Source: Bacteroidota bacterium (GTDB lineage Bacteria; Bacteroidota; Bacteroidia; Bacteroidales; Lentimicrobiaceae). From it: DNA of 64,000 nucleotides. The DNA lies in NCBI GenBank assembly GCA_009773455.1, contig WSXU01000004.1, forward strand, positions 62,001 through 126,000. Reading direction: 5' to 3'. The notes beneath the pieces are model-generated. The model had not been told where the DNA came from. It saw nothing but the letters and a program-made list of their open reading frames with translations, and ran no database searches. Made by a program: the position numbers and the translations under genes. Below are positions 5,710-10,124 of this stretch, piece by piece. Numbering within the stretch: position 1 is the stretch's first letter; each line of letters starts with the position of its first letter.

Positions 5710-7821
5710 TTATCTGATCAAAATCATTTTTTTCGTTTCAGTCCATCCTTTCAGGTGCAGTTGATAAAAATAGATACCAGGGTATAGACCGGAAGCATCA
5801 AAGACAAACTCATGTCTACCTGCAACATAAATTTGATTCACCAGGGTCATTATTCTGATTCCGGACAAATTGATAATGTCAAGCCTTACCGGACCGGCTT
5901 CGTTGTTCTGCCAGCTGATTGTTGTTTTTTTACTGAAAGGATCCGGGTAATTCTGAAACAGTCTGATGATTTGAGGATTGGTCATGACCGGATTCTCACT
6001 GACCGATACAACCCCACCGGTGTTGGTGTGCAGAACAGCACCGCCATAACCAATGGCCGTGGCATTGTTTTCATCCTGCATGGATACGCCATACAGATTA
6101 TCAGTCAGCCCATTGGCCTGGATTGCCCAGGTAGCCCCGCCATCGGTTGTATTGAGAATAACACAGGAAATCGCCGAACCGGCCCACCGGTCGCCGGCAA
6201 TCATGCCGTTGTTGATCCCCGAAAATGACACACTCCGCAAATCCGCAGATATCCCGGCCGACTGTGCGGTCCAGGTTGAACCACCATTGATGGTTCGGAG
6301 AATGGTTCCGTTTTCACCGGTCACCGTCCCGAAATTGGGACCTGTAAACGAAACAGCGAGTAACCTGAATGTTGTGCCACTGCTTTGCGTCACCCAGGTA
6401 GTTCCACCGTTGGTGGTTCGGAGAATGATCCCGTTATCACCTACTACTGTGCCAATATTGGCATCAGAAAAAAACACACCACGCAAAGCAGCTGTCGTTC
6501 CGCTGCTCTGTGGCACCCAGTTTGCACCTCCGCTGGTGGTACGAAGAATGGTGCCGTTGTATCCGACTGCCGTTCCATTGTTGGCATCGGAAAAGGAAAC
6601 ACTTCGCAGTGCGGTTGTAGTTCCGCCTGATTGCAAAGCCCACGAAGTTCCGCCGTTTGTTGTTCTGAGGATGGTTCCGTTATAACCTACCGCTGTTCCT
6701 TTGTTATAATCTGTAAAGGAAACACTGAACAGATCATAAACGGTTCCGCTTTGCTGTTCTGTCCAGGTGGTGCCGCCGTTAATTGTTCTGAAAATTGCCC
6801 CGTTTACACCAACTGCTGTTCCATAATTCGAATCGATAAAAAAGAGCCCCATCAGCGTCTTAATAAATCCACTGTTCTGAGCTGTCCAGGTTGCCCCGCC
6901 ATCGGTTGTCCGGAGGATTGTTCCATGATCTCCGACGGCAATTCCGCTCAGGGCATCGGAAAAACTAACTCCGTTAAGTCCGGTGGTTGTGCCTGTTGAC
7001 TGAGAGTTCCAGGTTTCACCACCATCAACAGTTCTGTATATATAGCCACCCATGCCCACCGCGGTTCCATTCCATGCATCGGTAAAACAAACGTCTTCCA
7101 GCCTGGTACCTTCTCCGTTGAACTTTGTCCAGGTGAGGCCCCCGTTTTTTGTCATCAGAATTGTAAAATTTAAGCCCACAGCAGTTCCGTTGTCCTGATC
7201 GGTAAAGGATACACCCAGCAGGCTGTTGGTGGTACCGCTGCTTTGTGTTGTCCAGGTCTGGCCGCCATCAAGTGTGCGGCGAATGGTGCCGTTGTTGCCG
7301 ACAATTGTTCCGGTATTGTTATCTGTAAACGAAACATCATAAAGGTCGTTTGAAGTACTGCCTGACTGCTGTACCCAGGTTGCACCACCATTGGTAGTAT
7401 GCAGAATGGTACCGGCATTACCTGCTATGGTGCCGTTGTCAGCATCGGTAAAGGAGACTCCCGACAGATCAGCCTCGGTTCCGCTGCTCTGAACAGTCCA
7501 GCTTAAGCCTCCATCGTTGGTACGGATAATCAATCCTTCGATGCCGACAGCTGTTCCGTGGTCAGCATCTGAAAAGGAAACGCTTCTGAGTATTGCATTA
7601 ACCCCGCTGTACTGATGCTGCCAGGTTATTCCACCATCACTGGTTTTCAGGATGGTTCCGAAGGCACCTACTGCCCAGCCGGTTGTGGGTGAAACAAAAT
7701 CTACATTATAGAGTACATTGCCCTGCGGCAGCGGATTTTGCCAGAACCAACCAGATGGCTGAGCGATAACACCATTGAGAATCCAGAGATAGCAGAGAAA
7801 GATCAGGTAAAGTTTCTTCAT
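5710..7821 (-). CDS. YCF48-repeat T9SS cargo protein
   Basis: This 703-residue protein has a signal peptide (MKKLYLIFLCYLWILNGVIAQ) followed by about 13 highly regular repeats of roughly 43 residues. Each repeat has the pattern VSFTDxxNGTxVGxxGTILRTTNGGxTW, as expected for a YCF48/BNR-type beta-propeller. The last 85 residues form a T9SS type A sorting domain (LFQNYPDPFSKKTTISW ... YPGIYFYQLHLKGWTETKKMILIR). Compared with its downstream neighbour at 3051-5648, the repeats are more uniform and there is no P-domain. The start codon at 7821 places the signal peptide at the N-terminus. The 61-bp gap to the neighbour and the shared layout suggest tandem duplication followed by divergence. The function is unknown; a surface-exposed binding role is an inference. 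Confidence 0.88.
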   Translation of the reverse strand: MKKLYLIFLCYLWILNGVIAQPSGWFWQNPLPQGNVLYNVDFVSPTTGWAVGAFGTILKTSDGGITWQHQYSGVNAILRSVSFSDADHGTAVGIEGLIIRTNDGGLSWTVQSSGTEADLSGVSFTDADNGTIAGNAGTILHTTNGGATWVQQSGSTSNDLYDVSFTDNNTGTIVGNNGTIRRTLDGGQTWTTQSSGTTNSLLGVSFTDQDNGTAVGLNFTILMTKNGGLTWTKFNGEGTRLEDVCFTDAWNGTAVGMGGYIYRTVDGGETWNSQSTGTTTGLNGVSFSDALSGIAVGDHGTILRTTDGGATWTAQNSGFIKTLMGLFFIDSNYGTAVGVNGAIFRTINGGTTWTEQQSGTVYDLFSVSFTDYNKGTAVGYNGTILRTTNGGTSWALQSGGTTTALRSVSFSDANNGTAVGYNGTILRTTSGGANWVPQSSGTTAALRGVFFSDANIGTVVGDNGIILRTTNGGTTWVTQSSGTTFRLLAVSFTGPNFGTVTGENGTILRTINGGSTWTAQSAGISADLRSVSFSGINNGMIAGDRWAGSAISCVILNTTDGGATWAIQANGLTDNLYGVSMQDENNATAIGYGGAVLHTNTGGVVSVSENPVMTNPQIIRLFQNYPDPFSKKTTISWQNNEAGPVRLDIINLSGIRIMTLVNQIYVAGRHEFVFDASGLYPGIYFYQLHLKGWTETKKMILIR

Positions 7822-8142
7822 GTTCTTTTGTTTTTAACCAATCAGGTATATGGAGTATTCCGGGTCATAAGAAATATGCATTTTTTCTTAGTGTTTCTGC
7901 ATGATCTCTATGTCTTAGTGGTTTTTCTTATCGCAGTCCGCTTTTTTACCACTCAGGCACTAAGAACACTCAGGATCACTAAGGATTCTATTAATTTTTT
8001 CTCAGTGTTTCTCAGTGATCTCAGTGTCTCAGTGGTTTTTTTGTTGCGTCCGTTTTTATTACCACTCAGGCACTAAGAGCACACAGGTTCACTTAGGATT
8101 CTATTAAATTTATTCTTAGTGTTTCTCAGTGATCTTAGTGTC

Positions 8143-8181
8143 CCCGCCTGCCCACCTCCGGCGGGTAAACCGGCGGGCAGG
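8143..8181. repeat. 39-bp GC-rich palindrome inserted into hairpin unit 3
   Basis: Aligning hairpin unit 3 to the other six units shows 39 extra bases between GTGTC and TCAGTGG. The insert is GC-rich and palindromic: CCTGCCCACC at one end pairs with GGCGGGCAGG at the other with one mismatch. Apart from it, unit 3 is the same length as its neighbours (136 minus 39 gives 97). Similar GC-rich palindromes lie at 35619-35638 and perhaps near 42537, so this appears to be a member of a small dispersed repeat family that landed inside the larger repeat. Direct evidence of mobility, such as a target duplication, is not clear. Confidence 0.75.
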
Positions 8182-8245
8182 TCAGTGGTTCTTCTTATCG
8201 CAGTCCGTTTTTTTACCACTCAGGCACGAAGAGCACGCAAGGTCA

Positions 8246-8656
8246 CTAAGATCTTGGCAACCTGGAAAATTCCTCTGTCACCAGTGGAACCACTTGATCA
8301 GTAATATTTTCACAATGAAAATTTATTAACAATCCTTTTGGTTTTCCGGCAAGTTTCAGATAAGACAAAAGTTGTGCTTTGAACAATGGGATCATAAGAT
8401 CAACAGCTTTTAGCTCAATAATAATCAGATCATTCACGAGTAGATCAAGTTTGAGAATACCACCAAAATCCTTGTTTTTATATTTTACAGGAACATACAG
8501 CTGCGTTTGAACATCCAATCCTGCATCTTCCAATTCTGCAACAAGACAAGGCTGATAAACAGATTCCAATAATCCGGGGCCAAGATTCTTATGAACCTCA
8601 ATCGCACAGCCTACAACTCTATAAGCAATATCATTAATATATTTTTGGGTAACCAT
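8246..8656 (-). CDS. GxxExxY family PD-(D/E)xK nuclease-like protein
   Basis: The protein is 136 residues from the ATG at 8656; an upstream in-frame ATG at 8725 would add 23 residues that are only translated repeat sequence, so it is rejected. The family-naming motif is intact at G28-x-x-E31-x-x-Y34 (GPGLLESVY), and the PD-(D/E)xK-like core is visible as D71 followed by E81-x-K83 (LDLLVNDLIIIELKA). These are the residues expected for a metal-dependent nuclease fold, but the biochemical activity of the family is not established as far as I know. The gene lies exactly in the linker position of a hairpin array: its start is 4 bases from unit 4 and its stop codon lies inside the right arm of unit 3. 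This suggests gene and repeats are linked in function or movement (inference). Confidence 0.88.
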   Translation of the reverse strand: MVTQKYINDIAYRVVGCAIEVHKNLGPGLLESVYQPCLVAELEDAGLDVQTQLYVPVKYKNKDFGGILKLDLLVNDLIIIELKAVDLMIPLFKAQLLSYLKLAGKPKGLLINFHCENITDQVVPLVTEEFSRLPRS

Positions 8657-9068
8657 TTCTTTAGTGTTTCTCATTGATCTTAGTGTCTCAGTGCTTCTTC
8701 TTGTCGCAGTCCGTTTTTTTACCACTCAGGCACTTAGAGCACGCAAAGTCACTAAGGATTATTTTTATTTTTTTCTTAGTGTTTCTGCGTGATCTCAATG
8801 TCTCAGTGGTTTTTCTTTTCGCAGTCCGTTTTTTTACCACTCAGGCACTAAGAGCACGCAGGTTCACTAAGGATTCTATTAAATTCATTCTTAGTGTTTC
8901 TCAGTGATCTTAGTGTCTTAGTGGTTTTTCTTATCGCCGTCCGTTTTTTTACCACTCAGGCAGTAAGAGCACGCAGGGTCACTAAGGATTATTTTTATTT
9001 TTTTCTTAGTGTTTCTGCGTGATCTCGGTGTCTCAGTGGTTTTTCTTATCGCCGTCCGTTTTTAAATA

Positions 9069-10124
9069 CTATCTGCAGATGACCAGTTTCCTGGTTTCAA
9101 CCCTCCCGTTTGCCTCAATCCTGTAGAAATAAATCCCTTCAGGAATATCGGAAACATCCACCACAACTTTATGCTCTCCGGCAGACCGGACACCATTACA
9201 TATCACAGCCACTTCTCTGCCTGAAAGGTCTGTCAGCCGGATTAATACCCGGGCGCTTTGTTTCAGGGTAAACGCTACTTCCGCCCCATCGGCTGCAGGA
9301 TTGGGATATATACTACTGATCAGTGACACAACCGGTGGTTTGACAGGCGGAATGCCCAATGAACCCTGCTTGCCTGAAAGTTTCACCCCACTTGTCAGGA
9401 TCGTGGTAAGATCAAACTGTTCCTCATAAATTGACATAATATTAACTTCAATCATGTCGCGGGTATAGAAGTTATAACTCCTGGTTCTCATGGTATCCAC
9501 CCCAACAGGCGTATGTGCGATGGTCCGCTGGTCTACCCTCATCCTGAGACAGGCAAATTCTCCCGAACTGATTTTCAGGGTACCAAAGGCGTCAACGGTG
9601 ATCTCATTTTCATCAATGGTGTAAATACCAGGCATGTAGTAGGTTGAATCTTTCTGACTTATCCAGTTCGTGCCCAAAGTCATCGGCATCACAGACTGAA
9701 CTACGGGTGGATCATAAGTCCATGCAACAGATGTTTCATCCGACTCACCATGCAGCAGAATCCTGTCATTCAGCAGCTCCTTATAATTCCAGGTGTAAAG
9801 TGTATCGTCGGGTCCGAACCAGTATTTTTCATACAATACCAGGTTTGACGTTGGAAAATCGCCGATAAACGGCGCGTTGGAAGGCTGGACCGAATAGGAA
9901 ACCGCAGTATACTCAACAGGTATACCGGTCATATCCCAGACCTGGGGACTGGATGAGGGTTCACCGACAAAGACTTCGTAATCAGTCCGGTCCCAGGGGG
10001 TCGAATAGGACTCGTAGACCACACCTACAGCAAAGGCTGATTGAAAGTCGGAATGCGTGATCGTAATCTGACCTTTTGCAAATACAGACAAAAGCGTCAT
10101 CAATAAAAGTAGATTTCTTTTCAT
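9069..10124 (-). CDS. secreted protein of unknown function with T9SS sorting domain
   Basis: This 351-residue protein starts with a signal peptide (MKRNLLLLMTLLSVFAKGQ) and ends with a T9SS type A sorting domain of about 80 residues (SSIYPNPAADGAEVAFTL ... LTDLSGREVAVI ... IPEGIYFYRIEANGRVETRKLVICR). The central 230 residues are not assigned to a family; they contain a pattern seen in other Bacteroidota cargo proteins with aromatic-rich strands (VWDMTGIPVEYTAVSYSV, LYTWNYKELL) and a stretch ending in FACLRMRVDQRT. It is expected to be exported across both membranes. The stop codon lies 5 bp from the truncated last unit of the hairpin array, so transcription of this gene would read straight into the array. 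Confidence 0.8.
   Translation of the reverse strand: MKRNLLLLMTLLSVFAKGQITITHSDFQSAFAVGVVYESYSTPWDRTDYEVFVGEPSSSPQVWDMTGIPVEYTAVSYSVQPSNAPFIGDFPTSNLVLYEKYWFGPDDTLYTWNYKELLNDRILLHGESDETSVAWTYDPPVVQSVMPMTLGTNWISQKDSTYYMPGIYTIDENEITVDAFGTLKISSGEFACLRMRVDQRTIAHTPVGVDTMRTRSYNFYTRDMIEVNIMSIYEEQFDLTTILTSGVKLSGKQGSLGIPPVKPPVVSLISSIYPNPAADGAEVAFTLKQSARVLIRLTDLSGREVAVICNGVRSAGEHKVVVDVSDIPEGIYFYRIEANGRVETRKLVICR

Follow-up and report, generated by a model that had tools for sequence, protein, structure and literature searches.

The window analysed here, a stretch of 64,000 nucleotides from a Bacteroidota bacterium of the Lentimicrobiaceae (contig WSXU01000004.1), carries between two protein-coding genes an array of ~90-nt hairpins that occupies positions 7888–9063 and repeats with a periodicity of 114–115 nt (TRF scores 389 and 618). 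Upstream in the direction of transcription lies a host gene of 351 aa (9069–10124, minus strand), whose stop codon is ~6 nt from the edge of the array, and downstream a host gene of 703 aa (5710–7821, minus strand), which includes a coding 123-nt tandem repeat at 6380–6690. The array is interrupted once, by a single gene of 136 aa of the GxxExxY family (8246–8656, minus strand), co-directional with the downstream host gene and predicted to encode a PD-(D/E)xK nuclease-like protein. An earlier note on this DNA had described the interruption as exactly one gene, and this proved accurate: the TAG stop codon falls inside the neighbouring arm, and the ATG lies ~3 nt from the other arm. The array and its spacing are likewise as that note had them, but its seven units are, in its own phase, six full units and one half unit, since a count by eye gives the CTTAG...GTGGT arm seven times and the ACCAC...CTAAG arm six times; one unit further carries a second palindrome of ~39 nt. 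Stand-alone copies in the same genome (L011, L012, L014, L015, L021) read ACCAC...short loop...GTGGT and thereby fix the phase, so that in the window the gene sits in the loop of one true unit (8215–8695) and not between units as first proposed.

Read from the upstream host gene, the array thus consists of gene-less hairpins at 8951–9040 (ACCAC...GTGGT, with a linker to 9063), 8836–8925 and 8721–8810, the gene-bearing hairpin, gene-less hairpins at 8061–8189 and 7948–8036, and a lone right arm (7888–7922, direct-repeat family D1) that closes it. The arms of the gene-bearing hairpin lie at 8659–8695 on the start-codon side, assigned from the sequence and the phase of the stand-alone copies, and at 8215–8250 (direct-repeat family D2), where the arm supplies the gene's stop codon. 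The hairpin character that the earlier note ascribed to the units is borne out by folding, with z-scores relative to shuffled sequences of -4.3 to -9.4 as RNA and -3.4 to -8.5 as DNA. The four plain gene-less units gave RNA and DNA values of -9.4 and -7.0 (folded 8952–9040), -7.1 and -8.5 (8836–8925), -8.8 and -6.5 (folded 8722–8810), and -8.3 and -3.4 (folded 7948–8035), the gene-less unit with an insert reached -4.3 as RNA (folded 8062–8189), and the whole gene-bearing RNA of the window folded no better than shuffles (z = -1.48). The insert in one arm of that unit (~8143–8181) is a second, G+C-rich palindrome of the CCTGCCCGCCGG type, and pieces resembling it were seen by eye near other hairpins of the same genome, including L009 and L029. 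At gathering scores, Rfam yielded no match in the window, nor across the five sources searched.

The window protein is a clear member of its family, scoring 130.3 bits against TIGR04256 (E 4.1e-38, cut-off 35) and 126.7 bits against PF13366 (E 7.8e-37, cut-off 22), and these were its only matches in NCBIfam and Pfam at E-values up to 0.1, with no transposase model among them. The PD-(D/E)xK residues reported as intact in the earlier note are indeed conserved across 94 relatives, with E31 invariant and D71, E81, and K83 each kept in at least 90%. An AlphaFold2 model (pLDDT 95.7) has a PD-(D/E)xK fold, for which the nearest solved structure is 4ic1 (SSO0001, which we take to be Cas4; Z 9.2 over 99 residues, rmsd 3.3, Foldseek E 8e-3); the same entry was the single, weak match in a sequence search of solved structures (E 0.95). 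Holliday-junction resolvases appear among many structural matches at Z ~6, and a Z below 8 may mean only a common arrangement. A shared fold by itself shows no function. The modelled fold and active-site layout resemble those of Cas4/RecB-like PD-(D/E)xK proteins, 4ic1 being the best match, although by sequence the matches of the window protein in NCBIfam and Pfam are confined to GxxExxY/PDDEXK_3. The protein is a probable DNA-cutting enzyme, a Cas4-like PD-(D/E)xK nuclease. Searches with tblastn returned no match to it among 50,697 phage records and matches in 8 of 72,556 plasmid records.

Elsewhere in this genome (4.81 Mb in 159 contigs, with four GxxExxY genes), a two-unit repeat query produced 25 similarity rows, some of which represent the two strands of one place; five correspond to the window array and 20 lie outside it, none of the latter at the other three GxxExxY genes. 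The arm motif has 36 matches in the genome, the window array included. Clear palindromes surround the window copy and a second copy (L003), which by eye is frameshifted. A third (L001), judged by eye, has a matching arm upstream and another ~450 nt downstream. The fourth (L004; G000:C131:27586-27930) has no visible arms and also lacks the E-x-K motif, and is possibly a domesticated copy. Three of the stand-alone loci (L012, L014, L015) carry other short-word repeat strings, of AACTGTT and GTTCAAT types, beside their hairpins.

A scan of named genomes identified at least 80 GxxExxY loci in Bacteroidota, Planctomycetota, Geobacter, Holophagaceae, Leptospiraceae, and others. For a quantitative comparison we assembled 114 loci, i.e., 80 best matches, the 30 best-scoring Bacteroidota loci, and the four of the window's own genome, with no random draw; eight had short flanks and were left out, leaving 106. 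Arms were scored by aligning the 300 nt upstream of each gene to the reverse complement of the 300 nt downstream, with a threshold of 16. An inverted repeat scoring at least 16 was found at 74 of these 106 best-match loci compared to 5 of 182 control ORFs from the same loci, mismatched flank pairs reached this score in 3.8% of 3000 cases, and 32 of the 106 loci fell below it. Because some loci represent the same insertion in related species, we recounted with one locus per protein cluster, which left the proportion at 45 of 64. The strict arm motif on both sides, with the ACC end pointing outward, was present at 25 of the 106 best-match loci and at none of 189 controls. Arms are strings of an imperfect 8–10 nt word, mostly CACnnAG, with variants such as CATTAAG, CACATAG, CGCAAAG, and CACAGAT, and the two arms of one locus agree with each other.

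The presence of the hairpin also goes with the presence of the gene. Across 247 Bacteroidota genomes, the arm motif was detected in 55 and a GxxExxY gene in 122, the gene being present in 52 of the 55 motif genomes compared to 70 of the 192 motif-less ones (Fisher p = 8e-16). Part of this co-occurrence is built in, since the gene's own arms can match the motif and such matches were kept. The association held when stratified by family (p = 3.5e-5) and when family f18 was removed (p = 1.7e-5); in the stratified test, f18 has a total of 54, and five single-genome motif-positive families were left out. The earlier note had reasoned that the link would be accidental if the repeat were widespread in genomes without the gene or if such genes usually lacked hairpins; the pattern is the opposite on both counts. 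All three motif genomes without the gene belong to f18, a family in which GxxExxY genes are mostly missing, and one of the three (L133) has a hairpin of TCCACnnAG words beside an ORF that looks, by eye, like a four-helix-bundle protein.

Arms and protein also vary together. Among the 83 best-match loci whose arms are clear, the arms are more alike where the proteins are more alike, with a Mantel rho of 0.28 (largest value in 500 permutations, 0.124). Paralogs within one genome have arms no more alike than arbitrary pairs (similarity 0.21 for 28 pairs from four genomes vs. 0.23 for all pairs), whereas the nearest protein in another genome is accompanied by more similar arms (0.33, 16 cases), and one genome (G236) holds several distinct arm words among its own GxxExxY copies. 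Genome-wide homogenisation of arms was considered and rejected on these grounds, as the arms of paralogs are unlike and go with the protein and not with the genome. Single genomes (G055, G236) hold several GxxExxY copies that are truncated or contain stop codons, which points to fast turnover.

Sites with and without the cassette could be compared directly in two genera. In genus g51, the cassette lies between the same two genes in four genomes (G054, G163, G100, G026), a decayed remnant with arms is found in a fifth (G038), and it is absent from three of the eight genomes (G175, G065, G069), in which the stop and start codons nearly touch and the hairpin is absent too. Two loci of this genus (L174, L181) look like mosaics: from the 3' part of the nuclease gene into the downstream flank they diverge from same-site orthologs, as if a divergent copy had replaced this segment. 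The second site, between hemA and hemC, was searched in 249 genomes of genus g7, which a flank in G330 matching a Flavobacterium locus (L044) at 100% suggests to be Flavobacterium; 245 genomes had a match and 45 loci were read. Forty-one of these entered a flank tree: five empty sites, 26 gene-less hairpins with TATAAG-type arms, four gene-less hairpins with ATTAAG-type arms, and six gene-bearing copies with ATTAAG-type arms (L251, L252, and L255 were left out for a short right flank and L250 because its site was not found; a separate check covered which of L217, L251, L252, and L255 carry the gene). Overall, ATTAAG-type arms accompany 9 of 9 gene-bearing copies, while 26 of the 30 gene-less copies carry TATAAG, and the five empty sites read have no hairpin. 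Left flanks of gene-less and gene-bearing relatives are up to 97% identical. Some gene copies at this site lie between two whole hairpins, so that the gene-in-loop phase seen in the window is not universal.

On the hemA-hemC flank tree, the gene-bearing state requires six changes for six rows, of which well-supported branches force two, 17 of the 38 inner branches being weakly supported; turnover thus looks fast, and this rapid replacement could stem from recombination between species rather than from transposition. The flanks of the empty sites are only 72–82% identical, which leaves a target-site duplication unreadable. The protein is under selection at this site, with dN/dS of 0.01–0.03 across the six pairs formed by four equal-length sequences (L196, L224, L236, L243). 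In 16 aligned gene-less TATAAG hairpins, 4 of 26 stem pairs are kept by double changes, a number reached in 0 of 500 shuffles, with 0–1 in slid controls. These 16 were picked from the 26 TATAAG loci, five multi-hairpin loci and five with short or damaged stems (L220, L229, L235, L242, L256) having been left out, and copying from one arm to the other could produce such double changes without any selection.

Among the best-match genes, 69 of 90 point the same way as both neighbours and 3 of 90 oppose both (39 and 2 of 54, respectively, after clustering). Ordinary neighbour pairs in the same loci are co-directional in 119 of 158 cases, so an operon gene would be expected to lie in sense just as often, whereas in an inserted element such placement amounts to a strong bias in orientation. 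From the upstream stop codon to the start of the left arm the median distance is 5 nt, and it is within 30 nt in 46 of 57 loci, a proximity that could reflect selection against damage, because gaps within operons are short.

The same layout recurs around an unrelated gene family. Genes for S23-like four-helix-bundle proteins (TIGR02436), of which the window's own genome has ten and which occur in 114 of 148 genomes, often lie in palindromes of 7–8 nt words, mostly with a different word per gene. In a sample of 40 loci (L110–L119 and L257–L286, 30 of them the best-scoring, with no random draw), 21 reached an arm score of at least 16, compared to 1.2% of mismatched pairs, and 28 of 36 genes ran in the direction of both neighbours. 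The idea of a hairpin found only with GxxExxY genes was therefore rejected: four-helix-bundle genes occupy similar palindromes, mostly of other words, so the layout is not specific to the nuclease and does not need it.

In our assessment, hairpin arms with a gene in their loop very probably constitute a mobile cassette with gene-less, MITE-like relatives. The arms would be the terminal inverted repeats of this cassette, made of a few imperfect 8–10 nt words, and the Cas4-like nuclease would most likely recognise its own arm words, either as a cruciform or as a single-stranded hairpin. It may then cut at the arms or at the target, with repair copying the cassette to new sites, and the gene-less hairpins would be non-autonomous relatives moved in trans. 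The cassette lies beside stop codons inside operons and in sense, so that its gene would be transcribed with the host operon, and the folded arms would probably let the transcript be trimmed or tolerated. Whether the nuclease acts on its own hairpin to move the cassette we put at even odds, and we lean somewhat towards the whole combination, i.e., a cassette, a nuclease recognising or cutting its arms, copying, and gene-less relatives moved in trans, as the best explanation; the recounts by protein cluster left the odds for the cassette and for the action of the nuclease unchanged. The earlier note had suggested that the array might be the substrate or the vehicle of the protein; the hairpin now appears to form the ends of a cassette and to be more than an array of substrates.

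Several other explanations would account for parts of these data. The unrelated four-helix-bundle genes found in the same type of palindrome, and mostly in sense, fit an RNA-level parasite comparable to the intervening sequences (IVS) of 23S rRNA, in which the transcript would fold and be cleaved, e.g., by RNase III, freeing the insert, while the protein would not be the mobiliser and spread would rely on general recombination or an unknown enzyme; excerpts of a published account of an IVS whose RNase III-cut stem holds an S23 ORF in its loop (PMC4990558) are consistent with it. However, a passive cargo should lack the conserved active site (at least 90%, n = 94) and the dN/dS of ~0.02 (one site) seen here, nor would its arms be expected to track the protein, and we regard this explanation as unlikely. 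We consider it more improbable still that the hairpins are older and spread by other means, with the nuclease gene copying itself into existing loops by cutting, in the manner of homing. Such a process would place the window gene at the position of a gene-less unit's loop, as observed, and would leave gene-less and gene-bearing hairpins at a shared hemA-hemC site, as in relatives with left flanks up to 97% identical, yet the empty site of genus g51 has no hairpin at all, and at hemA-hemC the ATTAAG arms of every gene-bearing copy recur in only 4 of 30 gene-less ones. Since arm words differ between gene-bearing and most gene-less copies, the gene has not simply landed in the resident hairpin that is more common, and a simple drop-in at existing hairpins is not favoured, given both these differing words and the hairpin-free empty sites.

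Alternatively, nothing here may be mobile, the gene being a resident host gene for a useful nuclease and the hairpins transcript-stabilising or attenuating operon elements. The very low dN/dS, the persistence at one site across related species, and the paired changes that keep the stem would all be expected of such a gene; its patchy presence, with six changes for six gene-bearing rows (two forced by well-supported branches), the multiple copies per genome with unlike arms, the broken copies, and the scatter over many phyla would not, and we give this possibility little weight, close to that of homing. Finally, it might have been suspected from the single case in the window, and from the copy without arms among the four in the same genome (L004), that repeat array and gene are unrelated and adjoin by chance, but this is refuted by the counts at best-match loci (74 of 106 vs. 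5 of 182 controls) and by the co-occurrence of motif and gene across 247 genomes, and we attach practically no probability to it.

The preferred reading, a mobile cassette bounded by hairpin arms, can be set against known systems. In REP/RAYT systems, as described in excerpts of PMC2817692 and PMC3733652, palindromic repeats flank a gene, many repeats are gene-less, repeat and protein co-vary, and repeat abundance is tied to the gene. The analogy with REP hairpins drawn in the earlier note holds for layout, co-variation, and co-occurrence: here too, as in a REPtron, a nuclease-type gene lies between inverted palindromic repeats of which the genome has gene-less copies as well, the repeat varies with the protein, and the occurrence of the repeat goes with the gene. 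It does not extend to the enzyme, a predicted PD-(D/E)xK fold instead of an HUH tyrosine enzyme, nor to the repeat, whose arms consist of 8–10 nt words and have no GTAG head (those of the window begin with ACCAC and end with GTGGT), and the insertion in sense at operon stop codons is a further difference. With both enzyme and repeat head distinct, the cassette would work like REP/RAYT without being a member. The 23S rRNA IVS, for which the excerpts of PMC4990558 describe an S23 ORF in the loop of an RNase III-cut stem, are similar in that terminal inverted repeats pair into a stem whose loop contains a small ORF, transcribed with the host RNA, and the S23-like genes of the window's own genome show this layout between protein genes. 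Unlike the IVS, the present element lies outside 23S rRNA, between the protein genes at 5710–7821 and 9069–10124, and its cargo is an unrelated nuclease; RNase III cutting is described for IVS and is hypothetical here.

Short gene-less intergenic palindromes with terminal inverted repeats at many sites, such as Correia, ERIC, and Chunjie, are a third point of comparison, and the gene-less hairpins of the window's own genome share these features. MITEs are described as non-autonomous, relying on a transposase supplied by a parental element (excerpts of PMC9769881), and excerpts of PMC10969869 report a Chunjie copy in a Geobacter operon and Correia transcripts cut by RNase III. The cassette differs from these, with Chunjie compared by description only, in that a gene-bearing form exists whose gene matches no transposase model. 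The open literature searched says almost nothing on GxxExxY genes, the name appearing in two papers, in PMC8934634 only in passing, and the element may be described in subscription papers. Text searches of the open literature for six arm 16-mers and for PDDEXK_3 returned none, and titles and abstracts in the open literature on IVS four-helix-bundle proteins, on Bacteroidetes palindromic repeats, and on palindromic or mobile elements (for the last, the best 10 of 89) do not describe it.

Here and in many other bacteria, the gene and its hairpin thus have the look of a mobile element that has received little study, carries a repeat of its own, and has inserted between operon genes. Tentatively, and at less than even odds, GxxExxY and four-helix-bundle genes might be two cargoes of one large, undescribed mobile class, with small ORFs in hairpin loops, arm words read by the encoded protein, insertion in sense at operon stop codons, and no known transposase or recombinase, of which the 23S IVS would be members that landed in rRNA. 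Linking the nuclease to a cognate hairpin provides the GxxExxY family with a testable substrate, would explain a widespread repeat family, and allows REP-like repeats and the intervening sequences of rRNA to be viewed in one framework, and if the nuclease does move the hairpin, it would represent a transposition route built on a Cas4-like enzyme.
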